From the NCBI GenBank assembly GCA_021789555.1, contig JAJYJK010000004.1, positions 1 to 64,000 of the forward strand: a stretch of DNA of 64,000 nucleotides, read 5' to 3'. Numbering within the stretch: the first letter of the stretch is position 1; the number at the start of each line of letters is the position of its first letter. A program made the position numbers and the translations under genes. Under the pieces are notes generated by a model. The model saw nothing but the letters and a program-made list of their open reading frames with translations. It was not told the DNA's origin and did not search any database. Shown here in pieces: positions 24,807-46,011 of this stretch. Source of the DNA: Nitrospirota bacterium. Its GTDB lineage: Bacteria > Nitrospirota > Thermodesulfovibrionia > Thermodesulfovibrionales > JdFR-88.

Positions 24807-25043
24807 TCAAGCCCCTTCGGCTTCGAGGGTTTTCAGTATCTCCTCGAGGAAGCCGAGGGCGTCATTGGCGGCGCTGTCGTCCACCTTCTGGATGGCAAAA
24901 CCGGCATGGACAAGCACATACTCGCCTACGGCGGCCTCCTCCGGCAGCAGCAACAAGCTGACCTTTCTTCTGGCCCCATAGACGTCAACGGTGGCCTCTA
25001 AACCGTTTTTCTCGATTATCCTTGAGGGTATGGCTAGGCACAT
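24807..25043 (-). CDS. hypC: Hydrogenase assembly chaperone HypC/HupF
   Basis: A 78-residue chaperone that, with HypD, builds the Fe(CN)2CO group and delivers it to the large subunit. The N-terminus MCLAIPSRII with essential Cys2 is diagnostic, as is VGEYVLVHAGFAIQKVD. It overlaps the protease gene by 10 bp. hypA, B, D, E and F are not in this window. Confidence 0.95.
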   Translation of the reverse strand: MCLAIPSRIIEKNGLEATVDVYGARRKVSLLLLPEEAAVGEYVLVHAGFAIQKVDDSAANDALGFLEEILKTLEAEGA

Positions 25044-25528
25044 TTCATTTTTCCCCTGGCCTGCACACCCCAGTCTTCGAGTTTTTTTATAACGGCATTA
25101 ATTAGAGCAGGCATAGCCTGTTCGACCTGGTCGGAGAGATTCAGCCCCACCTCCACATCCCGGGGCTGAACGCCGGCCAGGCATATCTCCTCCGGCGCCG
25201 CTCCGGTGATATCCAGGGCGAAAAGGAGGTCCTGGAGGCCTATCTGATGGACGGAGAATTTCTGGGAGAGGGCGGCAGGCACCTGCCGCCCTTCATAGAG
25301 TTTCACAGTGGCGGGGGGAGAGTCCGAGTTCACCGCGTCGATTATAAGCAGGCGGCGCGTCCCCTCGATATAGTAGAGGAGGTCGAGGCCCATAGTGCCC
25401 CCGTCCAGGAGGCGCACGCCTTCGGGGAAATGATACCCCGCCTCAAGGGCCTTTATGGCGTGGACCCCGACCCCCTCATCAGACATCAGCAGGTTTCCTA
25501 TTCCCAGTACGCTTATGCTTATTCCCAT
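25034..25528 (-). CDS. hyaD: Hydrogenase maturation endopeptidase (HyaD/HybD type)
   Basis: Cleaves the C-terminal tail of the large subunit after nickel insertion. Nickel-sensing and fold residues are visible in GIGNLLMSDEGVGVHAIKAL, LLDGGTMGLDLLY and the FSVHQIGLQDLL region with its His. The 164-residue length fits. It overlaps both hyaC and hypC by 10 bp. Its substrate should be the HyaB precursor, whose predicted cut is after His554. Confidence 0.92.
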   Translation of the reverse strand: MGISISVLGIGNLLMSDEGVGVHAIKALEAGYHFPEGVRLLDGGTMGLDLLYYIEGTRRLLIIDAVNSDSPPATVKLYEGRQVPAALSQKFSVHQIGLQDLLFALDITGAAPEEICLAGVQPRDVEVGLNLSDQVEQAMPALINAVIKKLEDWGVQARGKMKCA

Positions 25529-26181
25529 TCTTTGCCGGTTATGAACTTATACCCTCCGAAGATGGAGCCCATGAGCCCGTTGTGCTCGGCCGAGTCCAGC
25601 CAGACGGCCAGATAGACGTGGACGAGCGCAATGGCCCAGATGAAATACATGACCATGTGGTGCCAGAACCTTATCGCGGACACATTCCAGAAACCAAGCA
25701 TCCAGCCGCCCAGCACCATGTGGAAAAAGGGCACGCTCCTGGCATAAGACCAAAGCGCGAAACCGGAGAATATCTGGAACAGGAACATCAGAAACAAAAC
25801 GAAATACGCGGCGCCCGCGCACATTGTATGCCCGGCCGCATAGGGCGGCTTCTTGCTCATGAACAGGTAATATCTGGTCGCTCCCCCGAGGTCCTGCCGC
25901 TGCCGCTTTTTTAGCGGAAGAAAGACCCGCCAGTTGGCGTACCTGTTTCCGGCGAAGGCCCAGTAAAGCCTGATGATGATCATCATCAAAAACAGATAGG
26001 CCGCGGTCAGGTGGATAAAGCGCATCGTCCCCATCGTGAAACTGCTCTCCGACAGCGGATGGAGATAGGGGTTTCCGATATAGATGCCGGTGACCGAGAG
26101 GGCGATGATCGAGAAGAAGTTCACCCAGTGGGTGAGCCTGACAGGGACTTCCCAGATGTACACTCGCTTGCGCTCCGTCAT
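25519..26181 (-). CDS. hyaC: Ni/Fe-hydrogenase b-type cytochrome subunit
   Basis: Dihaem membrane cytochrome b that anchors the hydrogenase and passes electrons to quinone. The 220-residue protein has about four membrane helices and haem-ligand His residues in VRLTHWVNFFS, FIHLTAAYL, and RFWHHMVMYFIWAIALVHVYLA. It starts 21 bp after hyaB. Its presence makes this a membrane-bound uptake (group 1) enzyme facing the periplasm. Confidence 0.93.
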   Translation of the reverse strand: MTERKRVYIWEVPVRLTHWVNFFSIIALSVTGIYIGNPYLHPLSESSFTMGTMRFIHLTAAYLFLMMIIIRLYWAFAGNRYANWRVFLPLKKRQRQDLGGATRYYLFMSKKPPYAAGHTMCAGAAYFVLFLMFLFQIFSGFALWSYARSVPFFHMVLGGWMLGFWNVSAIRFWHHMVMYFIWAIALVHVYLAVWLDSAEHNGLMGSIFGGYKFITGKEWE

Positions 26182-26202: not shown

Positions 26203-27912
26203 TCAGACTATTTTTACCTTCAAAAGTTCTTTCCTGTTGACGTCCGTCACATGGACGGCGCAGGCCATGCAGGGGTCGAAGGAGTGGACCGTGCGGAGTA
26301 TCTCAAGCGGCTGCTCCGGGTTGAAGACGGGCGTGCCTATGAGGGCCGCCTCATACGGGCCCTTCTGCCCCTTTGCGTCCCTGGGGGAGCCGTTCCAGGT
26401 GCTCGGCACTACGCACTGGTAATTGATGATCTTTCCGTCCTTGATCCTTATCCAGTGGCCAAGAGCGCCCCTCGGGGCCTCATGGAAGCCGTATCCCTTG
26501 GCCTCCGACGGCCAGCTTCCCGGGTCCCATTTCTCGTTGTTATGTATCCTGAGGTCTCCCTTCTGCATGTTCGCCTTGAGCTCGTCTATCCAGTCGGGCA
26601 GTTTTTCAGCCACCACAAGCGTCTCGACCCCCCTTGCCGCCGTCCTTCCAAGGGTGGAAAACAGGGCGGCGGGGCCGACCCCGAGCTTGCTCAATACCAG
26701 ATTCACGACCTCCTTGACCCTCGGGTGGCCGGAGGCATAGGCCACAAGCATCCTGGAAAGAGGCCCCACCTCCATCGGCATGTCCTCATACCGCGGGGCC
26801 TTCAGCCAGGTGTACTTCGCATCCGTGTTCAAAAACTCATAAGGCGGCTTGGGCCCGGTGTATTTGTAGTCTGTCACGCCCTCCCAGGGGTGCAGGGATT
26901 TATTGTTGCCCTCGGGATACTCGTACCAAGAGTGGGCCACGTACTCGGCTATCTTCTCCTGGTCCACCGGATAGACCGTGCTTAAATCCTTGTTCTTGAT
27001 TATGCCTCGGGGCAGGAAGAGGTTTGCCGTATTCGAGACGGCGTCCTTGGGGAACTCGCCGTAGGCAAGGTAGTTCCCGACGCCCGCGCCATAGCCCGCC
27101 CACTCCTTGTAGAAAGAGGCGATCGCAAGGAGGTCCGGTATGTAGACCTTCTCCACGAAGACCTTTGCCTTTTGCGCAAGGTTCCTGATGAAGTCCAGCG
27201 ATACGATGTTGACGGCGTTCTGGCTGGTGGGGTCGATGGCGGTGGCCATGCCGCCCACCAGGTAGGTCTGGGCATGGGGATTCTTGCTCCCGAGAGTGGC
27301 ATGTATCCTTATGACGTCCTTCTGCCATTCGAGGGCCTCAAGATAATGGGCGACCGCCATCAGGTTCGCCTCCGGCGGCAGCTTGTATGCCGGGTGCCCC
27401 CAGTAGCCGTTGGCGAATATGCCAAGCTGGCCCGAGGCGACAAAGGCATTCAATTTATCCTGGACGCTTTTGAAATATGCGGCGCTTGAGTTATGCCAGT
27501 CGGAGATGGACTGGGCGAGCTGGGAGGTCTTGGCCGGGTCGGCTTTTAGCGCGCTTACAATGTCGACCCAGTCCAGCGCGTGCAGGTGGTAGAAATGTAT
27601 GGTGTGGTCCTGAACGTACTGTATCCCGGTGATAAGGTTACGGATAAGCCTCGCGTTATCCGGAATGGTAATCTGAAGCGCGTCTTCTACAGCTCTCACG
27701 GAGCTGGTGGCGTGAACCGTCGTTCAAACGCCTCATATACGCTGGGCGAATGCCCAGGCGTCTCTTGGGTCCCTCCCTTTTAGGACTAACTCCATCCCCC
27801 TGAACATGGTGCTCGATGACCACGCGTTCGTGACCTTCCCGCCGTCCACCTGCGCCTCGATCCTCAGATGTCCCTCAATCCTGGTGATAGGATCAATCGC
27901 AATCTTAGGCAT
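26203..27912 (-). CDS. hyaB: [NiFe]-hydrogenase large subunit with two in-frame TGA codons at the L1 cysteines (predicted selenoprotein)
   Basis: Start ATG 27912 has GAGGAGGAG upstream and lies 3 bp after hyaA. The 569-codon frame begins [19 protein letters not shown] and is normal in length. Codons 60 (27735-27733) and 63 (27726-27724) are TGA, in the context AFAQRI-TGA-GV-TGA-TTVH, exactly where L1 (RxCGxCxxxH) has Cys. After codon 63 the frame continues without shift (VRAVEDAL...). L2 is ordinary: DPCMACAVH with C548 and C551, then a 15-residue tail to be cleaved. In known enzymes these four residues bind nickel. A caller that stops at TGA would report a truncated protein from GTG 27699. 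Sec insertion is inferred; recoding to Cys is the alternative. Confidence 0.93.
27690..27706 (-). promoter_or_regulatory. Candidate bacterial SECIS hairpin in hyaB
   Basis: On the coding strand, CAGCTC pairs perfectly with GAGCTG around the 5-nt loop CGTGA, which has G at its second position. The loop starts 32 nt after the first TGA and 23 nt after the second. Bacterial SECIS elements lie within the coding region, typically with 16-37 nt between UGA and apical loop and a G among the first two loop bases (published consensus). One hairpin could therefore serve both codons. Confidence 0.65.
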
Positions 27913-27915
27913 GTT

Positions 27916-29004
27916 TTATTTCTCCTCCTCGGGTTTTTCGCCTTTCGTCTTCGTGGCCCTTATGATGCGGTGCGCCGCCAGGCCGGCCGCCGTAGCAATT
28001 GCAAGACCCGCCCCGACCTTGTCGGCCGTGCTGTCCACGCCGAAGCCGGGCACGTTCTCCAGTCTCCTGTAAAAAGGCGTCATCGTGTCCCAGAAACGCG
28101 GCGCCGCACAGCCTATGCAGCCGTGTCCGGAGCCGACCGGCCAGTTCGTCGACTGGTTCCACCTGACGGTCGGACAGTTCTTGAACGTCTCGGGGCCCTT
28201 GCATCCCATCTGGTAGAGGCACCAGCCAAGCCTGTGCCCCTCGTCGCCCCACTGCCTCACGTACTGCCCCGCGTCAAAATGCGCGCGCCTTTCGCAGTGG
28301 TCATGGATCTTCTCTCCGTAGAAGACAAGGGGCCTGCCCATGCTGTCCGTCAGGGGAAGACTGCCGAAGGTAAGGAAATGAACGACCGTGCCGGTGATGT
28401 TCACCACGTTTGCCGGGCAACCGGGAAGGTTTATGAGTTTTATGCCGCTGACCACGTCCTTTACACCCTTGGCCCCGGTCGGGTTGGGAGATGCGGCCGG
28501 CCACCCGCCGTCCCAGGCGCACGCGCCCACCGCTATCGTTGCGAGGCCATTGCCGCATACCTCCTTCACGATATCCTGGGCCGTCCTGCCGCCGACGGTG
28601 CAATAAACCCCTCCGTCCTTGGTCGGAATGGCGCCTTCAACGATGGTGATGTACTTGCCCTTGTAATTTTTGACCACGTCTGAAAGCGATTTCTCGGCCT
28701 GTTTTCCGGCAGGGGCCATTATGGTTTCATGATAGTCGAGAGAGATAATGTCCAGGATGAGTTCGGCCACGTTGGGTTTGCTGGACCTCAGTAAGCTCTC
28801 GGTGTTTCCGGCGCAGTCCTGGAATTCCAGCCAGACCACGTGGGGCCTTTCGGCCTTTTCAAGGGCCTCGGCTATCTTGCCGGCAAAGCTTACGGGCAGG
28901 GCCAGGGTCGCTGCCATAAGAGAGCAAAACTTCATGAATTCACGCCTTGACACCCCGTTTTTCCTCAGGGAATCATAGATGCTTCCTTCCTTGGCGTCCC
29001 CCAT
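27916..29004 (-). CDS. hyaA: [NiFe]-hydrogenase small subunit, Tat-exported, with an atypical proximal cluster
   Basis: Carries the three Fe-S clusters. A twin-arginine signal (VSRREFMKFC, residues 19-27) is followed by a hydrophobic stretch. Proximal-cluster Cys residues appear as QDCAGN (C64), VGACAWDGG and NLPGC, but the second Cys of the usual CxxC is Asn67. Distal and medial ligands are present in HDHCERR, GWCLYQMGCKG, FKNC and HGCIGC. A C-terminal hydrophobic segment (GAGLAIATAAGLAAHRI) is a likely membrane anchor. The 362-residue length is typical. Confidence 0.94.
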   Translation of the reverse strand: MGDAKEGSIYDSLRKNGVSRREFMKFCSLMAATLALPVSFAGKIAEALEKAERPHVVWLEFQDCAGNTESLLRSSKPNVAELILDIISLDYHETIMAPAGKQAEKSLSDVVKNYKGKYITIVEGAIPTKDGGVYCTVGGRTAQDIVKEVCGNGLATIAVGACAWDGGWPAASPNPTGAKGVKDVVSGIKLINLPGCPANVVNITGTVVHFLTFGSLPLTDSMGRPLVFYGEKIHDHCERRAHFDAGQYVRQWGDEGHRLGWCLYQMGCKGPETFKNCPTVRWNQSTNWPVGSGHGCIGCAAPRFWDTMTPFYRRLENVPGFGVDSTADKVGAGLAIATAAGLAAHRIIRATKTKGEKPEEEK

Positions 29005-34690: not shown

Positions 34691-36757
34691 TTATACGCTG
34701 AGACTTTTTTCCGTCTCCCTGAGCCACAGGAGCCTGGAGCCGTTTATGACACTCGCATTGACCGATTCGGTAAAGTCCGCCTCGGAGAAAATGAAACCCT
34801 TTTTCTCAAAGGGCCTCATTCCGGGTTTCGGGCCGGGTTTCGGGGCGCCGCCCTTAACCAGCTTTTCGATATCCGCCTCGGAGGGCCATTTTATATCTTC
34901 GCCAAACTGCTTGGCTATCGACGCGATTATCTCAAAATTGCTCCTCGCCTCTGCCTGGGGGGTGATCGCCTTCGGGAGCCATTTCAGCCTGCCCATGTAA
35001 TCGACGATGCTTCCCTCCGCCTCCAGGAAAGCGGCCGCCGGGAAAACAACGTCCGCCTGGGAGGCAATTTCATTGAGATGTGTATGCGCCACAATGAGGA
35101 AATCCGTCTGCGGCCTCTGCCTTAACGGCACATCGCCAAGCACGAAGAGGGCTTTCAGGCCGGCCCCCTCCGGGGCCGCCATCTCAAGATAACCCTTGCC
35201 CCCTTTTTCAGCTCCCAGCCCCGCAAGCGCCACACCGCGCGCGTTGCTTTCAAGCGGCACGGCAATCACCGGCGCGGCCTTTACCGCAGCCATATTGGAT
35301 GCGGCGTCGAAAAGGGCGGCGCTCGAAAAGACGACGGGTTTTTTGGCGGCGGCGAATATCCCGGCCGCAGTTTTGGCCGCCTCCGAGACCTCCGCATCCG
35401 AGACAGCCTGGGCGATCTCCTTATCGACCGCAAGGCCGCCCTCGCCTAGCGCCTTAATGAAGGCCTTTATGCTTGAAATCTCATCGCCCGCGAGCGCGAC
35501 ATCGGCGGCCTCCGCGAGCCTGGTGGCCCTCTGGTCTATGACGATGAGCTTCGAGCCGCGCTGGGCGCTCTTCCTGACCGCCACATCCAGCGCGGGCAGG
35601 ACCCTTTTCCACTGGTCGGCCGCGAGGCCCGCTACCACGATCACATCGGCCCCGTCAAGACTAATAGTGGCGGAATCCCTCAGCGCCTGCCCATCCGCGT
35701 AAAGCTCCATCGTGGAGGCGATATTCCTGGTGCCCACGGCCTTTGCAAGCCCGCGCAGGGCGACGGCGTCCTCGATAGTTATGGAGGCAGAGGTCATGAA
35801 GCCGGCATCCTCCCCCGCCTTCCTGAGCGCCCCGGCCGCAATCGAGAGTGCGTCCTGCCAGGTGGTCTCCTCAAGCTTGCCGCCCACTTTTTTCATCGGC
35901 CTCGTGAGCCTCGTGTCGGCCTCTATCCAATCGTAACCAAACCTCCCTAGAACGCATATATAATTATGGACGGAGCCCGCGTCGCCCCCCGCGTTCACCT
36001 TTACCACCCTGCCTTCCCTGGTGCTCACTTTTATGTCGCAGGCGTTGCCGCAGAGCAGGCAAACGCTGCCCGTCTCCTCCAGCTCCCAATCCCTGCCCTT
36101 CCTCCACCTGTCGGCCTCGAGCAAGGCGTTTACGGGGCAGGCATCCACGCAGGCCCCGCAGAAGGTGCACCCCGATTCCTGGAGCGGCCTGTCGTTTGCC
36201 GTAATCACGCGGGAGCCCACCCCCCTGCCCATGAAATCAAGGACGTTGGTGCCGTTTTCCCTGCAGACCCGCACGCACCGGCCGCAGAGCACGCAGTAAT
36301 CCGGGTCTCTTTTTATGAACGGGTTTGCCTCGTCCGTGGGGTAGCCGAACTTCTTTCTCGTGAAGCTCGATTCCTTTATCTCGAACTGATAGGCATAGTT
36401 CTGGAGGTTGCAGACGCCGGCCTTGGTGCAGGTCATGCAGTCAAGCGGGTGCATCGAGACGATGAGATCGATGACGAACTTCCTTGCCTCGAGGATGGCC
36501 TCCGTCTTCGTGTTGACCTTCATCCCCTCTTTCACCTTGGTGTTGCAGGCGATGACCGGGGCCTTCACCCCCTCCACCTCGACAAGGCAGAGCCTGCAGG
36601 CGCCGATCCCCTTCATCCCCTTCATGTAACAGAGGTTCGGGATATGGACTCCGGCAAGCTGGGCGGCATCGATCAGGTTGATACCCTCCGGCACCTCCGT
36701 CTCCCTGCCGTCTATCTTCAGCTTTATCAGTCCTGCCCCTTTTATTTTTTCTCCCAT
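34691..36757 (-). CDS. NuoG-like / NAD-linked iron-sulfur and molybdopterin-fold subunit
   Basis: Start ATG 36757 has AGGAGG 7 bp upstream; the frame continues to 36892 but that part looks non-coding. The 688-residue protein has a [2Fe-2S] domain (C43, C54, C57, C71), a His-Cys [4Fe-4S] site (H103, C107, C110, C116), two [4Fe-4S] clusters (C155-C165, C197-C207), one more (CLLCGNAC, C233-C240) and a partial molybdopterin-oxidoreductase fold. It resembles NuoG or the alpha subunit of NAD-linked formate dehydrogenase, but no catalytic Cys/Sec motif of a formate dehydrogenase was seen. It likely relays electrons. Confidence 0.85.
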   Translation of the reverse strand: MGEKIKGAGLIKLKIDGRETEVPEGINLIDAAQLAGVHIPNLCYMKGMKGIGACRLCLVEVEGVKAPVIACNTKVKEGMKVNTKTEAILEARKFVIDLIVSMHPLDCMTCTKAGVCNLQNYAYQFEIKESSFTRKKFGYPTDEANPFIKRDPDYCVLCGRCVRVCRENGTNVLDFMGRGVGSRVITANDRPLQESGCTFCGACVDACPVNALLEADRWRKGRDWELEETGSVCLLCGNACDIKVSTREGRVVKVNAGGDAGSVHNYICVLGRFGYDWIEADTRLTRPMKKVGGKLEETTWQDALSIAAGALRKAGEDAGFMTSASITIEDAVALRGLAKAVGTRNIASTMELYADGQALRDSATISLDGADVIVVAGLAADQWKRVLPALDVAVRKSAQRGSKLIVIDQRATRLAEAADVALAGDEISSIKAFIKALGEGGLAVDKEIAQAVSDAEVSEAAKTAAGIFAAAKKPVVFSSAALFDAASNMAAVKAAPVIAVPLESNARGVALAGLGAEKGGKGYLEMAAPEGAGLKALFVLGDVPLRQRPQTDFLIVAHTHLNEIASQADVVFPAAAFLEAEGSIVDYMGRLKWLPKAITPQAEARSNFEIIASIAKQFGEDIKWPSEADIEKLVKGGAPKPGPKPGMRPFEKKGFIFSEADFTESVNASVINGSRLLWLRETEKSLSV

Positions 36758-36801
36758 TGCTACCTCCTGGATTCGGGCTTGATTTCCATCCGGATTTTGC
36801 T

Positions 36802-37389
36802 TCAGTCCCCGACCTTCGCGGGTTCGGCGGCGACGACGACCTCGATTGCGCCCTCGGGACAGACCGGCAGGCAATCGCCGCATTTCACGCACCTCTTCTG
36901 TCTTATCTCGAAAGGCAGATAACCGCTCAGAAACGGTTTCCTTTGCTCACCCAATATCGCGCCGTGCCTGCAGGCGGCCAGGCAAAGGCCGCACATCGTG
37001 CACTCGGCCGGGACGACCCTGTATTCTAGCAGCGCCGCGCACTCGCCCTCGGGGCACCTGCCCTCGATATGGGAGCGGAACGCCTCCGTTTCCAGCCACT
37101 CCAGAAGGAAGCGCGCCGTGTCCTTGCCCTTCTTGCACATCGAGGCCTCAAGCATGTTGCCGGCTATCCGCTTCAGGGCGATGAGGTCCGCTTCAGCGCC
37201 GCGTCCCCCGGCGATATTCTCCAGTCTCCTTTTGGCCTCGAAGCTCCCAAGCGAGCAGGGAAAACACCTGCCGCACATGGGGCCCTCAAGAAAGCCCGCT
37301 ACATAATAGAGCGCCTGCTGGACGCGGCACCCCCTGGCCTTCGCGGCGGCCCTTATGTCCTCGACCTTCGGTTCCTTCTTCTCGTCCAT
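36802..37389 (-). CDS. Iron-sulfur protein: NuoF C-terminal-like domain plus 2[4Fe-4S] ferredoxin
   Basis: A 195-residue protein. The first half has MCGRCFPCSLGSFEAKRRLE and a later ASMCKKGK, which match the cluster N3-binding C-terminal domain of NuoF. The second half is a ferredoxin with CTMCGLCLAAC and CVKCGDCLPVCPEGAI. It lies between the NuoF-like and NuoG-like genes with short gaps (11 and 44 bp). I know no named family with this exact pair; it probably adds clusters to the NuoEFG-like complex. Confidence 0.8.
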   Translation of the reverse strand: MDEKKEPKVEDIRAAAKARGCRVQQALYYVAGFLEGPMCGRCFPCSLGSFEAKRRLENIAGGRGAEADLIALKRIAGNMLEASMCKKGKDTARFLLEWLETEAFRSHIEGRCPEGECAALLEYRVVPAECTMCGLCLAACRHGAILGEQRKPFLSGYLPFEIRQKRCVKCGDCLPVCPEGAIEVVVAAEPAKVGD

Positions 37390-37400
37390 CGGAGTCGCCT

Positions 37401-39779
37401 CTAGTAAATGTCCTCGGCCATGAAAATGACTTCGGGCAGCAGGTATGAGATGAGGTCCCTGTAGGAGACCATGCCTATTATCTTCTCGCCCTCCATGACC
37501 GGCAGGTGTCTTATCTTCCTCTCGGACATGAGGGTCACCGCGACGCTTATGTCCGTGGCGGAATCGAGCGTTACCGGATTGGGGGTCATCACTTCCTTCA
37601 TCGCCTTTTGCTTGAACTGGACGTTCTTGGCGAAGCAGTGCATGATGTCCCTCTCCGTGAATATGCCGACCAGTTTCTCCTCACCGTTAAAGACGAGCAT
37701 CGAACCTACGTTCTGGCCGTCCATCATCTTGATGACGTCGGCAACGATGCGGTCCTCCGCGCAGGAGACCATCTTCATGGGCTTGGCCTTTATAAGGTCC
37801 TTCAGGGTCATGCTGGCCCTCCTTTCAAGAATCTCGATTTTATCCGGGGGAATCCTGAACTGCTCCTCAAGCTTCGCTATGCTGTGCTTCCTTATCTTCA
37901 CCGCGCCCACGGGGCAGGCGTCATAGCAGGCCTTGCACTGCTGACAGTAGGCCCGGTCTATGAAATACTTGTCCCTGCCCTCCTTGACGGCGTCATAGGC
38001 GCAGGCCTTCTTGCACAGGCCGCACCGGATGCACTCGGCGGGGCTGATGACGAAGACCCCCATGCCCTTGCAGACCTTCGCCTTGCAGTATTTGTTGTAT
38101 ATGTGCTCCTCGTATTCCTGCCTGAAATACTTTATCGTGCTCAGGACGGGATTGGGCGCGCTCTGGCCCAGGCCGCACAGGGAACCCTTCTTCACCATCC
38201 TGCCTATGTCTATCAGCCGCTCTATATCTCCCGGCTCTCCCCTGCCGGTGGTTATCCTGTTTAGGACCTCGAGCATCTGATAGGTGCCTATCCTGCAAGG
38301 CGGGCATTTGCCGCAGGACTCCGACTGCGTGAAGGAGAGGAAATACCTGGCCATATCGACCATGCAGGTGTCCTCGTCCACGACGACCATGCCTCCGGAG
38401 CCCATCATCGAGCCCACCTTGGCCAGCGAATCGAAGTCCACCGGCATATCCAGGTGCTCCTCCGGGATGCAGCCCCCCGAGGGCCCTCCCGTCTGGACGG
38501 CCTTGAATTTCCTGTCGCCGATTATGCCGCCCCCGATATCGAATATTATCTCCCGCAGCGTCATGCCCATCGGGATCTCCACGAGGCCGGTGTTTTTTAC
38601 CTTCCCGGTCAGGGCGAAGACTTTCGTGCCGGGGGAGTTTTCCGTGCCGATGGAGTGGAACCACTCGGCGCCTTTCTCGATAATCGGCGGCACACAGGCA
38701 TAGGTCTCTATGTTGTTTAAGTTGCTCGGATGGCCCCACGCGCCGCCGCCCGGCTCCGACAGCCTTGGCGGCCTCGGCCTCGGAAATCCCCGCTCCCCCT
38801 CGACCGAGGCGACAAGGGCGGTCGACTCTCCGCAGACAAACGCCCCCGCCCCTTCCCTTATGTCCACCGTGAAACCGAGGCCCGTGCCCAGGATATTTTT
38901 GCCAAGAAGCCCGAGCCCCTCTGCCTGCTTTATCGCAATGCCCAGGTTCTTCACCGCAAGCGGGTATTCGTGCCTTACGTATATGACTCCGTAGCTCGCC
39001 CCTATGGCGTAAGCGCAGAGGGCCATCCCCTCGAGGAGGCTGTGCGGGTCTCCCTCCATGATGGAGCGGTCCATGAACGCGCCGGGGTCGCCCTCGTCGC
39101 CGTTAGCCATGACGAGTTTCAGCTTGCCGGGGGCCTTTTTCGTATGCTGCCATTTCCTGCCCGCCGGGAACCCCGCGCCGCCCCGGCCGCGGAGGTTCGC
39201 CTTGTCCACTTCGTGCAGCACCTGGTCCGGCGTCATCGTGGAGAGAGCCTTTAAAAATGCGCCGTAGCCGCCCACGGCGATGTAATGGTCTATGTTGCCG
39301 GGGTCTATCCGGCCGTTATTGCGGAGCGCGATCCTTATCTGGGTCTTGTAGAAAGGGATGTTCGTCATCTCCGGCACCGGCTCGGAGAGGAAGTCCTGCC
39401 GGTAGAGGTTCGTCCTGTAGGGCGCGCCGCTTACGAACGTATAGCTCAGAAGCCAGTGGGCCTGCTCCGGCTTCACCCTCTGATAGAATGTGGCCTCCGG
39501 CAGCCCCGAGGGGACCAGTCCCGGCGTCTCCACGCTCATGACCGGGCCCTTCTGGCAGAGCCCCTGGCAGCCCGTCTTTACGACTTCAAGGGCGATGCCC
39601 TTTTTCCCGGCCTCGGCCTCGAGATTGGCGAGCACTTTGTAGGCGCCGCCGGCCGTGCAGGCCGTCCCGCAGCAGGCGCGCACGCGGGCGGCACCCTCCG
39701 GGAAAGTCCCGGCGGCCACCCGCTTTGCGTACTCGGCGAATTCCGCTATGCTGCCAAGCTTACGGTCTTGATTTTCCAT
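37401..39779 (-). CDS. NuoF-like NADH-binding subunit with N-terminal [2Fe-2S] and C-terminal CBS pair
   Basis: Start ATG 39779 with GGAG 8 bp upstream; TTG 39791 is possible. About 792 residues. Domains in order: thioredoxin-like [2Fe-2S] (C36/C37, C41, C71, C75), FMN/NADH domain (RGRGGAGFPAGRKW near 195-208, GAGAFVCGESTAL), SLBB, N3-cluster domain (SESCGKCPPCRIG), two [4Fe-4S] ferredoxin motifs (CIRCGLCKKAC, CQQCKACYDACP), and two CBS domains from about residue 656 (IFTERDIM, MVSYRDLI). CBS domains bind adenine nucleotides in other proteins. Similar to HndC/HydB of bifurcating hydrogenases, apart from the CBS part. Confidence 0.9.
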   Translation of the reverse strand: MENQDRKLGSIAEFAEYAKRVAAGTFPEGAARVRACCGTACTAGGAYKVLANLEAEAGKKGIALEVVKTGCQGLCQKGPVMSVETPGLVPSGLPEATFYQRVKPEQAHWLLSYTFVSGAPYRTNLYRQDFLSEPVPEMTNIPFYKTQIRIALRNNGRIDPGNIDHYIAVGGYGAFLKALSTMTPDQVLHEVDKANLRGRGGAGFPAGRKWQHTKKAPGKLKLVMANGDEGDPGAFMDRSIMEGDPHSLLEGMALCAYAIGASYGVIYVRHEYPLAVKNLGIAIKQAEGLGLLGKNILGTGLGFTVDIREGAGAFVCGESTALVASVEGERGFPRPRPPRLSEPGGGAWGHPSNLNNIETYACVPPIIEKGAEWFHSIGTENSPGTKVFALTGKVKNTGLVEIPMGMTLREIIFDIGGGIIGDRKFKAVQTGGPSGGCIPEEHLDMPVDFDSLAKVGSMMGSGGMVVVDEDTCMVDMARYFLSFTQSESCGKCPPCRIGTYQMLEVLNRITTGRGEPGDIERLIDIGRMVKKGSLCGLGQSAPNPVLSTIKYFRQEYEEHIYNKYCKAKVCKGMGVFVISPAECIRCGLCKKACAYDAVKEGRDKYFIDRAYCQQCKACYDACPVGAVKIRKHSIAKLEEQFRIPPDKIEILERRASMTLKDLIKAKPMKMVSCAEDRIVADVIKMMDGQNVGSMLVFNGEEKLVGIFTERDIMHCFAKNVQFKQKAMKEVMTPNPVTLDSATDISVAVTLMSERKIRHLPVMEGEKIIGMVSYRDLISYLLPEVIFMAEDIY

Positions 39780-40263
39780 TGCCCGCTCCAAGGTTCCCGA
39801 TAACGCCCGTGAGCTTGCCAGGGTTCATCTCGCCCACGACCTCATCGTTTAAAGTGACAACGGGGGCAAGCCCGCAGCAGCCCACGCATCCCACCGTCTC
39901 CAGCGTAAGCGACATGTCCTTAGTCGTCTCACCCTCGGCTATCTCGAATTTCTCCTTGACGGCATCGAGTATCTTTGCCGCTCCCCTTACGTGGCAGGCC
40001 GTCCCGGTGCAGACGCACAAGACATTCCTGCCGCGCGGTTTGAAGTAAAAATGCTTGTAGAAGGAGGCCGTGCTGTAGACCTCCGCAAGGGAGATGCCGA
40101 GTTTCCTTGAAAGCGCCTTCAGCGCCTCCTCGGGGAGGTAGTTGTGCTCCTTTTGTATCTGCTGGAGGGCATGGATGAGCAGGCCGCGTTTTTTCTGCCG
40201 CTCATTCAATACCTCGCCGACTCTTCCGATTTCGCGGTCTATGTCCAGATCGTCAATATTCAT
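39760..40263 (-). CDS. NuoE-like [2Fe-2S] subunit
   Basis: A 167-residue thioredoxin-like ferredoxin with an N-terminal helical domain (ALQQIQKEHNYLPEEALKAL) and the four cluster Cys residues in CVCTGTACHVRG and VGCVGCCGLAP. It donates to or accepts from the NuoF-like protein, whose gene overlaps its 3' end. It starts 14 bp after cooS, tying the NADH module to CO dehydrogenase. Confidence 0.92.
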   Translation of the reverse strand: MNIDDLDIDREIGRVGEVLNERQKKRGLLIHALQQIQKEHNYLPEEALKALSRKLGISLAEVYSTASFYKHFYFKPRGRNVLCVCTGTACHVRGAAKILDAVKEKFEIAEGETTKDMSLTLETVGCVGCCGLAPVVTLNDEVVGEMNPGKLTGVIGNLGAGNGKSRP

Positions 40264-40277
40264 GTGAAACCCCCTGC

Positions 40278-42275
40278 CTAACCAAGGCCGAGATGCGGTT
40301 TCGCGGCCTTCTCAAGTTCCCTTCTTGCGGCCATGTCCATGAGCACGCGTTCCGTGCCGAACCTTCCGGGCTCGTACTTCTTCAGTTTCAGATACGTCCT
40401 GGCCTTGTCTATGTAGTCAAGGGCCAGGTTGAGGATGTTCTCCGGGTCCGGCTCGAAATGGAGGCCCCCCATGAACCTCTCGTACCAGCCCCTGGTCATG
40501 AGGTCCGTGACCTCCTTGCTCGCCCCAACCGGCGAGGAGCCGCCGCCGAAGATGACGGGGACCCCCGAGGCGGCGAAGTAGCAGCCTATGGCTATCGCCT
40601 TCTCGCTCATCCACTCGGGGGCGATGCCGACGGCCGGCATCCCGCCTATCTCGTCCGAAAGGCCGCCCTCGGCGGCCATCGCGGAGGCTATGGTGAGTAT
40701 CCTCGAATTGTCCACGCACGCGCCAAGGTGCAGGATTGGCGGTATGCCGATTGCCTCGCAGACCTCCCTCAGGCCGGGCCCCGCCTCATCGAGCGCGGTC
40801 TCCGGTGTGAGGAAACCGGCCGTGCCGAACGCGTTGGCGCCGCATCCGGTCGTCAGTATGAGGACGTCCTGCTTTATGAATTCCATCGCCAGGTACCGGA
40901 AAAGGCCGGTCGAAGGCACCCTGGGGTTGTCGCAGCCCACGAGGGCCACCACGCCCCGGACCCTCCCGGCCATGATGGCGTCGTTTAAGGGCCGGAAAGA
41001 GGCGCGCCACCTGCCGCCCTGCATGTACTCTATGTACTCATGCGAGAACCCGGCTATCAGGGGCGCCTTGTCGGTCTCCACGTATTTGCCCTTCCCAGTC
41101 CGCATGGGGTAGTTGTCGATGGCGACGCGGACGATCTTCCTTGCCGCCTCCTTCGCGTGGTGCTCGTCGAAGGCGACGTGCATGGCCCCCTGCGTCATGG
41201 CCTTCTCAGAGGTGCTTATCACCTTCGTGTGGAATTTTTTCGAAAGCTCCACTATGGCCGGCATGATGCACTGGACATCGACGGATATCGCGTCAATGAG
41301 CCCGGTCATCACGCCAAGCTCCTGGTTCGTAAACCCCCCTGATGTAGGGATGCCGTGGCGCATCAGGACCTCATTGGCCGTGCAGCACATCCCGCCCAGG
41401 TTTATACCCTTTGCCCCCTTAGACTTGGCATATTCTATCAGCTCGGGCTCGGAGACCACATCCAGGATGGCCTCGGCCAGCGTGGGCTCGTGCCCGTGCA
41501 CGACCAGATTGACCTCGTCCTCCTTGAAGATGCCGAAACTGGCCGCCGCCTGCACCGGCCTGGGCGTGCCGAAGAGCGCGTCGGTGATGTCGGTGGACAT
41601 CATCGAGCCCGCCCACCCGTCGGCGAGGGATGTCTTCAGCGCATGCAACAGGAGGTGGTCCGGGTCGTGGTCGACGCCCATATTGGTCCTGTGCATCGCC
41701 TCCACCACCTCGCGGTCTATGGAGCGCGGCAGCAGGCCCCACTTCTTCCATCTCTCCTGCGTCTTTTTAGGGGCGCGCTTCGCGTAGTTCACGACCCCCT
41801 CGCGCCTGCTGAAATCCTCCAGGAGTTTCAGGGCCACTTCCCTGGCCAGGGCCTTTACTTCCTTGCCCTCGGGGGCGGGTATCTCCAGGATCTCCGCCAT
41901 CCGCATGAGTTTCGCCGGGTCTTTTATCTCGAAGTCGCTTGTCTTGCCCTCGCCCACGGCCAGCAGCGTGATGGCCATGCTCCTTGCGTGGTCGGAATGG
42001 GCCGCGGTGCCGGCCGCCACCATCCTAAGGAGGTTCCTGGCGGCGACAGTGGATACCGTGGCGCCGCAGACGCCCGTTACCTCTTCCTCGGCATTGGGCC
42101 CCACGAGCCTGCACGGGCCCATGTGGCAGACCTTGCAGCAGGCCCCGGTCTCGCCTATCGGGCAGGGTTTCATTCGCTCCGCCCTCTCAAAACAGGTGGT
42201 CAAACCTTCGGACTCACCCCAGTCGATTATCTTCTGAGCGGCCTCCGTTGCGCTTTTTATCTTATGCTGCTTCAT
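40278..42275 (-). CDS. cooS: Anaerobic carbon monoxide dehydrogenase catalytic subunit
   Basis: Ni-Fe enzyme that reduces CO2 to CO or the reverse. The 665-residue protein has the D- and B-cluster Cys region (CCKVCHMGPCRLVG, GVCGA) at the N-terminus and C-cluster ligands in VHGHEPTLAE, GGMCCTANE, GCDNPR, TTGCGANAFGTAGF and AIGCYFAASGVP. All key positions appear intact. It lies 77 bp downstream of acsB, so it should be the CODH half of CODH/ACS. The CooC/AcsF nickel-insertion ATPase is not in the window. Confidence 0.97.
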   Translation of the reverse strand: MKQHKIKSATEAAQKIIDWGESEGLTTCFERAERMKPCPIGETGACCKVCHMGPCRLVGPNAEEEVTGVCGATVSTVAARNLLRMVAAGTAAHSDHARSMAITLLAVGEGKTSDFEIKDPAKLMRMAEILEIPAPEGKEVKALAREVALKLLEDFSRREGVVNYAKRAPKKTQERWKKWGLLPRSIDREVVEAMHRTNMGVDHDPDHLLLHALKTSLADGWAGSMMSTDITDALFGTPRPVQAAASFGIFKEDEVNLVVHGHEPTLAEAILDVVSEPELIEYAKSKGAKGINLGGMCCTANEVLMRHGIPTSGGFTNQELGVMTGLIDAISVDVQCIMPAIVELSKKFHTKVISTSEKAMTQGAMHVAFDEHHAKEAARKIVRVAIDNYPMRTGKGKYVETDKAPLIAGFSHEYIEYMQGGRWRASFRPLNDAIMAGRVRGVVALVGCDNPRVPSTGLFRYLAMEFIKQDVLILTTGCGANAFGTAGFLTPETALDEAGPGLREVCEAIGIPPILHLGACVDNSRILTIASAMAAEGGLSDEIGGMPAVGIAPEWMSEKAIAIGCYFAASGVPVIFGGGSSPVGASKEVTDLMTRGWYERFMGGLHFEPDPENILNLALDYIDKARTYLKLKKYEPGRFGTERVLMDMAARRELEKAAKPHLGLG

Positions 42276-42352
42276 CCGATCTCCTCCGGTCTTTCACTTT
42301 TCACTTTTTCACTTTGCGCTTTCCACTTGAATCGACGCAGTCTTCATATCGG

Positions 42353-44551
42353 TTATATTATGGGGTCCATCTGGAGCGCGGGGTGCTCCACGCTTGCGAG
42401 GAATTCCAGGAGTTTCTCGGAATCCTCGGCCACGGTCTCGTCCGCGATCTTATCCACCAGCCCGGAGGCGCCTTCCTCGGCCGCCCTCGCCTCGAAGGCG
42501 TCTTTCAGGCTCTCCTTGAGGTTTTTGGTCATCCAGACGATCCTCTTTATGCCGCCGTCGCCGGCGAGGAATTTCTTGCTGGTGATGAAATTCCTGCCTA
42601 TGCCCATGAAGCCGGGGGTCTGCATGCCGCCGCCCACCGAGCCCGCGAGCGTCGAGAACTTCATCCCCGCAGGCGTCATCCCCTGATGGCCCCTCTGCAC
42701 TATCATCACCCCGTTTGCCTCGGGCACGATGGCCACGATGCACTCGAAGCAGCCGCAGGAGGTCATGGGGTTTTCCATTATCGTATAGAGGTTCAGGGTC
42801 TCGACCGCGCCGCCGGTGGATTTCTTCAGGTACTCGTCGACGCCGGTGTACCTGCCGTAGCGCTCGTCCGTCACCTGGCCCTTCGCGACGGGCTGGTTGC
42901 CGCCCGTGGGGTCTATCTCGAAGGCCGCCTTGCCGTCCAGCCAGTTATAGGCCCCGCAGAGCCCAAGCCTCTCGGGCGTTATGATGCAGACGTGGCTGGG
43001 CGCAAAGCTCTGGCAGAGCAGACAGGAGTAAAACGTGTCCACGGACTCGTCCGTGAGAGACCCGAGCCTCTTGTCCCTGTCCGCGTAGGCGTGCCTCGCC
43101 TGCTCCAGGAGCGCCAGCACCTCTTTTTCGTCCGTATAGATAGTGACCTGCACCTTGTCTATGATGGAGCGGAAGCGGTGCGGCATCATCGTCGTCATGA
43201 TCTGCCCCAGGTGTTCGAGGGTGACGCCCGCGGCCTTCGCGGCGCTGCTTATCCTTATCCAGTTAAGGTCTCTCTGGCCCATGTGCCAGAGCCCCTGTCC
43301 TTCGTTTATGTTATGGTGCACTTTCCTTTCGATGACGGACTCGAAATCCTTCTGCATCTTCCTGCCCGCCACGTCTATGACGAGCCCCAGGGGCATCTTG
43401 CCGCCTTTTTCATAGCGTCCCTGCCAGTCCTCGCCTATGATGGTGACCTTGCCGTCCTCGACCTCCTCCATCTCGCGCATCCGGACCCACTCGAAGGCCG
43501 GGGTCCTCTGCCCCCCGAACTCTATGAACATGTCCTCCTTGCGTATCCTCTCGCCCTCGAAGGCCGGGCCGTAGGCCACGGGGATAGGCGGTTTTTCAAC
43601 TATTATCTTGAGGCCGCGGACCTCTATGGCCTTCTGCACTATCTTCTGGTGGTCGAATTCCTTGTCCACCTCCTCATAGGTGCACACGCCGGTGGGATGA
43701 ATGACCGGCACATCGGTGTCCGCTATCGCCGGGAAGCCCATGTTTATGGCCCCCGCGCCGGTGGACCACTTCATGTCATCGAGCTGTCCCAGCACCATGG
43801 CGAATGCGAAGACCCTGTCCTTCTGGTATCTCAGATGGCCCTTGTAGTCGCCGGGTTTCTTGTTGCCGAAGATGAGGGAGGCCCTTATGGCCCAGTCCAG
43901 CGCGTAAAGCGTGTGCTCGGTCTCGGGCCCCAGTGGCACTATCCTGGTGTCCCAGCCAAGCTCCACCCCTTTCCTCTGGAGCTGCTTCGTGACGCTCTCG
44001 CCGTTTACGTGCCCGGAGAGGAATATAAGTATGTTTTTCTCCTGAAGCTCCCTTACAATCTTCACGGCCGTGTCGTCATCGGGGGCCGCCCCTATTATCG
44101 CGGCGAACCCCGGCATGGTGCCGTCCACCAGTTGTATGCCCAGGTTCCTCTGTATGGTGTCGGTTATGAAGCCGTTATACACAAGTCCGGTCTCGGGGTC
44201 CTTCATGGGCTCCAGCCCAAGCGCGGTCCTCAGGGCAAGCCATATCTCTTCGGCAAAAAGGGTCGCCATGCCGGAGTCCAGTGCCTCGCCCAGGTACGGC
44301 TTCCAGATGTGCTCCGCGGGCTCTGCGTGCAGCAGGTCCCTCGCAAACCCCAGGGCCGTCCTCATGTCACCGAGCGTCTTTACCGGGAAACCCGTCATCG
44401 CATACACCATGGGAAGGTAATAAGCCGTGTCGTTGAACTCGAAACGGTGCCCTTCGCCCTTCTCCGCTATCGCTTTTTCGAGAAGCTCCTCCGCTTCCCT
44501 GTATATCCGATTGGCGCCTCTGATGGCGGCCGAGGCGATTGCCTTCGACAT
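42353..44551 (-). CDS. acsB: Acetyl-CoA synthase (CODH/ACS beta/alpha subunit)
   Basis: Joins CO, a methyl group and CoA into acetyl-CoA at the A-cluster. The 732-residue protein starts MSKAIASAAIRGANRIYREA. A-cluster ligands are in YSCLLCQSFAPSHVC, LGLCGAYNW and MTSCGCFECI, the last providing the Cys-Gly-Cys that holds the distal nickel. The length matches the bacterial enzyme including its CooS-contacting N-terminal domain. It precedes cooS and follows acsC with a 116-bp gap. Confidence 0.97.
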   Translation of the reverse strand: MSKAIASAAIRGANRIYREAEELLEKAIAEKGEGHRFEFNDTAYYLPMVYAMTGFPVKTLGDMRTALGFARDLLHAEPAEHIWKPYLGEALDSGMATLFAEEIWLALRTALGLEPMKDPETGLVYNGFITDTIQRNLGIQLVDGTMPGFAAIIGAAPDDDTAVKIVRELQEKNILIFLSGHVNGESVTKQLQRKGVELGWDTRIVPLGPETEHTLYALDWAIRASLIFGNKKPGDYKGHLRYQKDRVFAFAMVLGQLDDMKWSTGAGAINMGFPAIADTDVPVIHPTGVCTYEEVDKEFDHQKIVQKAIEVRGLKIIVEKPPIPVAYGPAFEGERIRKEDMFIEFGGQRTPAFEWVRMREMEEVEDGKVTIIGEDWQGRYEKGGKMPLGLVIDVAGRKMQKDFESVIERKVHHNINEGQGLWHMGQRDLNWIRISSAAKAAGVTLEHLGQIMTTMMPHRFRSIIDKVQVTIYTDEKEVLALLEQARHAYADRDKRLGSLTDESVDTFYSCLLCQSFAPSHVCIITPERLGLCGAYNWLDGKAAFEIDPTGGNQPVAKGQVTDERYGRYTGVDEYLKKSTGGAVETLNLYTIMENPMTSCGCFECIVAIVPEANGVMIVQRGHQGMTPAGMKFSTLAGSVGGGMQTPGFMGIGRNFITSKKFLAGDGGIKRIVWMTKNLKESLKDAFEARAAEEGASGLVDKIADETVAEDSEKLLEFLASVEHPALQMDPII

Positions 44552-44667
44552 TACATCCTCCTTATGTGTTTCATCTTGGGCCTCAGGGTGAGCAATCCCA
44601 TTGTCGCCTATTTTATAAAAAATTTAATTTATTTATCAAGCCGATAAAATAAATTAAACAAGCAGAA

Positions 44668-46011
44668 TCAGGCCGTTCTGGCTTTCAGGAAGGCCGGGAT
44701 GCCGTTTGCCTCCCGCGGGCCGACCGTAATCTTCCATCCGGCGAGCTTGTCCTCTATTGAGCCGCTCAGAATGGCCACATAACCCGGTATGATAAGCTCC
44801 CGCTGGTCAAGCTCGCCCTCCACGCCGCTTTCGGTTATGAACTGGGCGATCTTCGATGCGGTGAACTTGCCCGCCGCCCAGGCGGTAAGGACGGAAAGCC
44901 CCTCGGAGTCCATGACGGCAAGGCGGCACGGGACCTTGCTGTTTTCAATCTCGCCGGAGACTATGAAATATGTGAGCGAGAAGTTGGTAGTGATGAGGAA
45001 AGGCGCCTTTGGCCCCGGTTCTCCTATTTTGTATATATTCTGTTGGACCTGCATGGGCACCTGGGGGTCCGTGTAGATGTTCTGCCTCAGGGAGAAGAGG
45101 GCAAGGTTCTTCCATTTCTCGGCGGAGCCCACCACGACAATCGAGGCGTACTTTTCCACCGCAAGGCCGGCCACCAGGGCCTCGAGCATCGTGTCCTGCC
45201 TGTTTGCGAAGGTGATTACGGGGTAGCCCAGGGGCTTGAAATTCTTTTTAAGCGCGGCCCTCCTTATATAGGTGTTGTCACGGAGGATCTCGCCCGCGCT
45301 CCTTGCGCCCGGATCGAGCACCATGTCCTCTATGCCTAAGGTTTTCGCCTTCTCGGTAAGCTCGCAAAGCTCGTCAATATTTTTGGCCGCTATGCCGAGG
45401 GCCGCCTTGGCCGCCTTCGCCTTTTCGGCCATGGCCTGGAGATTGCCGGCGTTGGCCCCGTAAAGGACGGCCTTTTTGCCCGCGAACTGGCTGAGGGCCG
45501 CTTCCGCGGCTTCGGGATTTTGCGTCGAGATAATCACCGGCATTTCGGGCGCCTTCCAGGCGGCAAGCTTCGCCAGCTCCAGGAATTTCGCCGGCTCCCC
45601 GGAATCATTCGAAAGAAAGAGGGCGTCCACCCGGAGTCTTTGCCCAACCCTGTCTATTTCGGAGGCGGCGGCCTCTTCTATCCTGCCTGCCGCGTCGGCC
45701 GCGGCAAGCGTGTCTTTTATCTCAAGGGCGATGGCGCAGGGGTTTACGAACTTCTTTTCGTGCCTGAAGAGCACCATCTCCTCGCCCATCTTGACGGCCT
45801 TTGCGCCAGCGCCAAGCGACGTCGGCCTTATGGGGGGCGCGGAGGCCTCGCCAAGTTTTTGCCTTGCGTCCTCCGATACGTCCGGGCACTGGTCCAGGGA
45901 GGCCTGCCGCTGGGCAAGCTTCATGGCGAAGGCCAGGCAGGTGGGCTGACCGCACTTCTTGCAGTTGGTCTTTGGAAGCAGTTTGAATATCTCGACTCCG
46001 GTTAGCGCCAT
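44668..46011 (-). CDS. acsC: Corrinoid iron-sulfur protein large subunit (AcsC, gamma)
   Basis: Carries the cobalamin cofactor's [4Fe-4S] partner and methyl group to AcsB. The N-terminal cluster motif LPKTNCKKCGQPTCLAFAM is diagnostic; a TIM-barrel and a C-terminal corrinoid-binding domain follow (NFSLTYFIVSGEIE). The 447-residue length is typical. It begins 1 bp after acsD, with GGAGG 11 bp upstream inside acsD. Confidence 0.96.
   Translation of the reverse strand: MALTGVEIFKLLPKTNCKKCGQPTCLAFAMKLAQRQASLDQCPDVSEDARQKLGEASAPPIRPTSLGAGAKAVKMGEEMVLFRHEKKFVNPCAIALEIKDTLAAADAAGRIEEAAASEIDRVGQRLRVDALFLSNDSGEPAKFLELAKLAAWKAPEMPVIISTQNPEAAEAALSQFAGKKAVLYGANAGNLQAMAEKAKAAKAALGIAAKNIDELCELTEKAKTLGIEDMVLDPGARSAGEILRDNTYIRRAALKKNFKPLGYPVITFANRQDTMLEALVAGLAVEKYASIVVVGSAEKWKNLALFSLRQNIYTDPQVPMQVQQNIYKIGEPGPKAPFLITTNFSLTYFIVSGEIENSKVPCRLAVMDSEGLSVLTAWAAGKFTASKIAQFITESGVEGELDQRELIIPGYVAILSGSIEDKLAGWKITVGPREANGIPAFLKARTA

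Follow-up and report, generated by a model that had tools for sequence, protein, structure and literature searches.

The window analysed here, a stretch of 64,000 nucleotides, carries on its reverse strand a hydrogenase operon in which the small-subunit gene lies upstream of the large-subunit gene, with genes for a cytochrome b, a protease and a HypC-like ORF downstream (Table 1). From its opening motif we take the last of these to encode a HypC-like chaperone, and the small-subunit leader SRREFMKFC, judged by eye, is presumably of the twin-arginine type. The b-type cytochrome subunit would provide the link to quinone, and the gene families present point to a periplasm-facing, quinone-linked uptake hydrogenase as the probable product of this operon layout.

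The large-subunit frame runs from an ATG at 27912 to a TGA at 26203, with inner TGA triplets at codons 60 and 63 only, and its L1 motif reads R-I-U-G-V-U-T-T-V-H, where U stands for TGA. Re-reading the sequence confirmed two statements of the original prediction, namely that an uninterrupted 569-codon frame carries TGA at codons 60 and 63 in the place of RxCGxCxxxH and that the C-terminal L2 motif keeps both of its cysteines, here Cys548 and Cys551. We take residue 60 to be the terminal and residue 63 the bridging L1 ligand; the earlier assignment of one terminal and one bridging Ni ligand fits both this numbering and an alignment to solved hydrogenases, in which residues 60, 63 and Cys548 correspond to HybC 61, 64 and 546 of E. 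coli Hyd-2. These Hyd-2 site numbers are as given in the accessible portion of PMC11212049. The solved chain closest to the large subunit was 3myr_B (E 6.9e-227), followed by hydrogenase-1 chains, and the best solved [NiFe] chain reached 758 bits with this query versus at most 328 bits for solved [NiFeSe] chains. A PF00374 search of the genome gave otherwise weak or partial matches only and no second intact group-1 large subunit, the kind of copy that the original prediction had listed among its possible refutations. A reassigned UGA code was rejected because, among 24 long ORFs selected from the window, 12 terminate in TGA, the large subunit's own end included. The isoleucyl-tRNA synthetase-like ORF at 57616-60444 closes with TGA, which bears out the earlier remark that TGA is a true stop in ileS.

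Table 1. Positions of the hydrogenase operon, its recoding features and a neighbouring gene set in the window.
Feature	Position	Strand	Basis or remark
HypC-like ORF	24807..25043	-	ORF list; starts MCLAIPS
HyaD/HybD-type maturation protease	25034..25528	-	TIGR00140 153.8 bits, cut-off 151.8
b-type cytochrome subunit	25519..26181	-	TIGR02125 139 bits, cut-off 121.5
[NiFe]-hydrogenase large subunit, 569 codons + stop	26203..27912	-	frame reading; PF00374 788.9 bits, 2 TGA
Conventional ORF from inner GTG, 498 aa, without L1 motif	26203..27699	-	form returned by protein search
L2 motif DPCMAC, Cys548 (26269-26271) and Cys551 (26260-26262)	26260..26271	-	both Cys; C548 = TGC
Predicted bacterial SECIS hairpin, 6-bp stem, 5-nt loop CGUGA (27696-27700)	27690..27706	-	
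UGA codon 63, predicted Sec at second L1 position	27724..27726	-	TGA in 137/137 TGA-bearing distinct loci
UGA codon 60, predicted Sec at first L1 position	27733..27735	-	aligns with first Cys of RxCGxC
Hydrogenase small subunit, proximal-cluster motif C-A-G-N	27916..29004	-	TIGR00391 447 bits, above cut-off
Molybdopterin oxidoreductase match	34691-36892		
NuoF-like subunit match	37401-39791		
Prismane/CO dehydrogenase-family protein match	40278-42275		
CdhD match	44668-46011		

Homologous loci were aligned across the motif (210 loci), of which 177 were distinct by the DNA around it; the duplicates arose mostly where a single genome had been retrieved along two paths, and no pair among the 177 shared an identical 100 nt from codon 60. 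The first and second L1 codons were nothing but TGA or Cys (TGC/TGT) throughout these 177 loci. With the two sites written in order as U (TGA) or C (Cys), 106 loci were UU, 31 CU, 40 CC and none UC, counts that do not stand for natural frequencies, since the loci were gathered by similarity searches and directed fetching. At 64% identity to the query or above there were 104 UU loci (three of them partial), 10 CU and 31 CC; at 50-63% identity the corresponding numbers were 1, 20 and 7, and below 50% identity 1, 1 and 2. The L2 motif was Cys-Cys in all 174 distinct loci that cover it. Thus the exchange of TGA/TGA for TGC/TGT at exactly codons 60 and 63, which had been proposed as a check, is found across homologues, and the recurrence of the identical TGA pair in 106 of 177 distinct loci upholds the earlier view that chance mutation is an unlikely origin. 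No further stop before residue 560 was present in the aligned part of the 106 UU loci. The only stops before that residue beyond the L1 sites were single ones in two CC loci (L241, TAA at 137; L242, TAG at 26; query numbering), perhaps assembly errors.

One alternative reading of the gene is a pseudogene or truncation, in which translation does end at the TGAs and the sole product is the 498-aa piece that starts at the inner GTG and lacks L1. It was in precisely this form that the protein search gave the present gene (P0002) and its nearest sister (P0003; ncbi, ena), both of 498 residues and beginning at the inner GTG past the motif. A piece of this kind would miss two Ni ligands, and among the 177 distinct loci the TGA pair recurs 106 times, each time free of more stops before residue 560. 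Codons 1-59 of UU genes are also under purifying selection at least equal to that on the remainder, with a pooled pN/pS of 0.118 versus 0.197 for codons 64-500 (151 pooled, non-independent pairs; 65 of 86 UU frames usable), and the region before the TGAs therefore behaves as translated and needed. Together with the hairpin that accompanies TGA (see below), this makes truncation very unlikely. Among the 121 proteins listed by the search (the best 120 of 8000 candidates, plus the query written with C), 118 had the CC pattern, P0066 was CC by eye and the other two were P0002 and P0003; full-length Cys homologues among these best 120 were at most 78% identical to the query. Gene models that start past the motif are a plausible reason for the double-TGA form having been missed.

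The original prediction had named selA, selB, selC (tRNA-Sec) and selD as genes to look for in the rest of the genome, and all four were found in the same assembly, which is 98.8% complete: selA scored 584 bits, selB 361 bits and selD 333 bits, and a tRNA-Sec with anticodon UCA scored 73 bits. The SelD is itself of the Sec type, with TGA in the motif SGCAG-U-ASK. In 49 genomes holding 50 of the 80 named loci (those of the named scan, below), 34 of the 36 with a TGA form had selA above the cut-off, as did 6 of the 13 that were Cys-only (Fisher p 0.0005); G067, in which both forms are present, was placed in the TGA group, and a seventh Cys-only genome held a selA fragment under the cut-off. Three TGA-form genomes without a selA match (G087 and G108 of this set, and G041 among the relatives within the order) all had a tRNA-Sec over the cut-off. 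Within the order selA is uninformative on the forms, since it is present in 60 of 61 relatives.

UGA might alternatively be read as Cys or another residue, as could happen if the Sec machinery were loaded with Cys when selenium is scarce. Consistent with this, Cys is the sole exchange partner at both sites, and the genome's tRNA-Cys(GCA) gets 47.8 bits on the tRNA-Sec model. However, the genome has the full set of selA, selB, Sec-type selD and UCA tRNA-Sec, encoding Cys requires no UGA, and the unusual tRNA-Cys, with its GCA anticodon, should not decode UGA; we consider such a reading highly improbable. That tRNA-Cys(GCA) (L012, G000:C101:2301-2390) has a long variable arm and lies just over the cut-off of the tRNA-Sec model, and the accessible part of PMC5424206 holds no description of a tRNA-Cys(GCA) scoring on that model. 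A second match to the tRNA-Sec model over the cut-off was also observed in G019, G022, G041, G050, G108 and G087.

A predicted bacterial SECIS (bSECIS) hairpin follows the two codons, its loop beginning 23 nt past UGA63 and 32 nt past UGA60, with an energy of -8.4 kcal/mol in a 27-nt fold. According to the part of a 2026 review available to us (PMC13188914), bacterial SECIS elements have a loop of 3-9 nt with G in the first two places, a stem of 4-16 bp, a distance of 16-37 nt from the UGA and an energy of -7.5 kcal/mol or lower, and the hairpin lies within all of these published bounds for UGA60 and UGA63 alike. With spacing counted from codon 63, and with loci of at least 50% identity and sufficiently long windows, the same bounds held in 71 of 78 UU, 22 of 25 CU and 7 of 38 CC distinct windows. 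Since 23 and 32 nt both fall within the published range, one hairpin is compatible with the recoding of both UGAs. It is quite unlikely that only UGA63 is Sec, with UGA60 acting mostly as a pause or stop, or being read by a near-cognate tRNA, and a working enzyme with one Sec. In favour of such a reading, the hairpin is closer to UGA63, and the CU state occurs in 31 of 177 loci while UC occurs in none; against it, codon 60 has stayed TGA in 106 loci, with TGC/TGT as the only alternatives elsewhere, and its 32-nt spacing is itself inside the 16-37 nt range.

We also found the hairpin to be associated with the TGA forms. In two registers, full pairing was present in 52 of 61 distinct UU windows versus 1.9 expected under synonymous recoding, in 3 of 8 CU windows versus 0.07 and in 0 of 24 CC windows versus 0.12, the registers having been picked by eye after reading the sequences, with Cys forms, synonymous recoding and sliding as controls. 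A wider set read in four registers was fully paired in 65 of 72 UU, 4 of 6 CU and 0 of 32 CC windows, and in 17 of 18 windows of the TGA set at 50-63% identity. Sliding the partner left few fully paired windows, save where one register becomes another (UU at +2, 35; CU set at -2, 5; CC at -3, 3). Stem pairs swap type jointly (A-T/T-A/G-C; G-C/C-G; C-G/T-A/A-T), changes that in places come with altered amino acids. UU and CC proteins differ most at residue 69, which sits at the base of the stem, and Val occupies residue 72, within the loop, in 89 of 89 UU versus 55 of 142 CC proteins. Across seven independent tree pairs the hairpin followed the TGA state in six, opposed it in none and showed no difference in one (median p 0.03). 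Folding energy relative to synonymous shuffles, with the codon pool drawn from the same windows, U windows included, gave a weak signal for UU (mean z -1.07; p ≤ 0.05 in 4 of 85), and p ≤ 0.05 was reached in 4 of 8 CU and 2 of 24 CC windows. A one-TGA group at 51-55% identity carried another hairpin in 11 of 18 windows, with the loop 18 nt past the UGA.

The double-TGA arrangement is widespread, occurring in Nitrospirota, Chloroflexota and other bins. Among the best 80 of at least 581 matching stretches, which make up the named scan, UU carriers were mostly titled Nitrospirae or Nitrospirota, and the others were bins of Chloroflexi and Anaerolineae, along with a small number under the titles Deltaproteobacteria or Proteobacteria. 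Stop counts, made by hand, placed a double-TGA match in at least 71 of 395 sampled Nitrospirota genomes (positions read in 51 of the 71) and in at least 23 of 298 genomes from the class of a Chloroflexi bin; these two samples also gave at least 26 and at least 5 one-TGA rows, respectively. Named carriers are mostly metagenome assemblies, as would be the case for a sequencing or binning artefact. However, 106 distinct loci show the identical codon pair, and carriers lie on long single contigs (2.37 Mb in G022; 3.17 Mb in CP070632.1, locus L089; 5.35 Mb in G688:C1, locus L235), which leaves an artefact with a practically negligible probability.

A predicted one-Sec form, with TGA at the second L1 site only, is also found in a Hyd-2-like family. 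This second hydrogenase group (L145-L148 and L175-L190; 51-55% identity) typically has its TGA confined to the bridging L1 site, and one member of the 51-55%-identity group, L171, has TGA at both L1 sites. One scanned CU protein at 50-63% identity was Hyd-2-like by NF007778, with 906.6 bits, which is under the cut-off of 969. At 43% identity, two loci from one family within the order carried R-I-U-A-V-U with an L2 of D-C-C-I-A-C (L152, G041) and R-I-C-G-V-U (L154, G050).

In a tree of 106 proteins built with a quick method, the UU state needed 13 changes, at least seven of them forced by starred branches, and in the close pair L031 (UU) and P0004 (CC) both L1 sites differ at once. Several genomes hold two forms: UU and CC in G348 (L193/L194), CU and CC in G051 (L136/L137) and G253, and UU and CU in G615 (L229/L230) and G491 (L231/L232). 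The presence in one genome of a Sec isoform next to a Cys isoform, or of a one-Sec next to a two-Sec isoform, hints at selenium-dependent switching. Because TGA at the first site with Cys at the second was never seen, we suggest that the second, bridging L1 site may have turned first, a tentative direction given that the tree is not rooted by data.

Classical [NiFeSe] hydrogenases (Desulfovibrio HysA; methanogen FrhA/VhuU) share with this enzyme the [NiFe] family and the use of Sec for a Ni-ligand Cys, but they have one Sec, in the C-terminal L2, whereas here L2 is Cys-Cys and two Sec are predicted in L1. The large subunit is outside the classical [NiFeSe] family, as the defining Sec site, the first Cys of L2, is Cys here; the HysA model NF045518 gave 402 bits and its cut-off of 780 was not reached. 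NF033181 ('NiFeSe_hydrog') is no marker of the double-TGA form, since it scored 559.3 bits here, which is short of the cut-off (600), whereas a Cys homologue reached 625.9. The operon, in which a Tat-type small subunit, the large subunit, a cytochrome b and a protease stand together, is shared with the membrane-bound uptake [NiFe] hydrogenases of group 1 (3myr, E. coli Hyd-1/Hyd-2 and Geobacter relatives), which have Cys at all four ligand sites, whereas two of the four codons are TGA here. The one pointer to HydDB group 1f is the source name 'hydrogenase, group If' on the Cys homologue P0034.

The same L1 sites have been altered in engineered Cys-to-Sec variants of E. coli Hyd-1 and Hyd-2, the former reportedly in a 2021 paper, and single variants are active in H2 oxidation, but these are laboratory-made with one site each, whereas here two natural sites are predicted to be Sec jointly. 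In the part of PMC11212049 available to us, all four E. coli Hyd-2 variants with a single Cys-to-Sec exchange oxidised H2, at levels below native, and the activity of these single variants indicates that the chemistry tolerates Sec at either one of the L1 sites. The accessible text of PMC13188914 gives UxxC or CxxU motifs for Sec hydrogenases (its Table 1) and describes predicted UxxU selenoproteins that also have two UGAs three codons apart (Prx-like, mercuric-reductase-like and FmdB-like), but these are unrelated redox or metal-binding proteins with no hydrogenase among them. A hydrogenase large subunit with Sec in L1 is absent from that Table 1 of 119 prokaryotic selenoprotein families, as far as the accessible text goes, and L1-Sec hydrogenases have no mention in the available parts of PMC9312934, PMC10779653, PMC9723677, PMC6258894 and PMC1794560. 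Titles and abstracts of the literature searched, which included few subscription papers and no preprints, held no description of a double-Sec hydrogenase, nor did a literature search on the NCBIfam name NF033181. As far as we found, Sec at the L1 Ni-ligand pair was previously known from engineered enzymes only, and the present case would be a natural one.

We conclude that the locus encodes an intact respiratory-type [NiFe]-hydrogenase in which both N-terminal Ni-ligand UGA codons are very likely read as Sec, a reading to which we assign a probability of roughly 0.92. The two selenocysteines of the original prediction are thereby supported in silico by the Sec machinery, the codon exchange, the single copy, purifying selection and the SECIS-like hairpin. 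The nickel would then very likely be held by two selenolates and two thiolates, as judged from sequence. There is good reason to go further and propose a natural, widespread class of double-selenium [NiFe] hydrogenases with bridging and terminal selenolates served by a single SECIS, which probably arose via a form with one Sec at the bridging site, switched repeatedly to and from all-Cys and went unnoticed because gene callers start past the motif.

In the proposed mechanism, SelB with Sec-tRNA(UCA) would decode both UGAs through the single hairpin. By homology, Sec60 would serve as a terminal Ni ligand and Sec63 would bridge Ni and Fe, and Cys548, which stands where classical [NiFeSe] enzymes carry their Sec, would stay the proton-relaying thiol. 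The enzyme would be exported by the Tat route and oxidise H2 on the outward side of the membrane, with electrons passing through the Fe-S clusters to cytochrome b and quinone. Selenium resists over-oxidation better than sulfur, and the selenolates may for this reason be retained for faster recovery of the site from oxidation, which is the most speculative step.

Known [NiFeSe] enzymes have one Sec at one site, and the other Ni ligands have so far, as far as we found, been approached via engineered single variants. In the present family selenium has seemingly evolved more than once at two different ligands, including the one that bridges Ni and Fe, and some genomes with a Cys isoform alongside offer matched natural pairs for the role of selenium at each ligand. 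The gene also provides a system for asking whether one SECIS recodes two UGAs nine bases apart. Protein sets need correction, because they list the gene as a fragment from which one of the two active-site motifs is missing.

Two further features of the region were noted. In the small subunit Asn replaces the usual second proximal-cluster Cys (residues 64-67), and there is an extra Cys150. Residue 67 was N in 27, D in 38 and C in 10 of the UU set and N in 6, D in 6 and C in 1 of the CC set, the rest being not found or not covered. Residue 150 was A, T or V in 10 of the 11 small subunits with Cys67, and those with N or D at 67 mostly had Cys150, two of the UU set being exceptions. The pattern resembles a ligand swap unconnected with Sec. 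About 7 kb from the hydrogenase, the window also holds a set of formate/CO2-type genes at 34691-46011.
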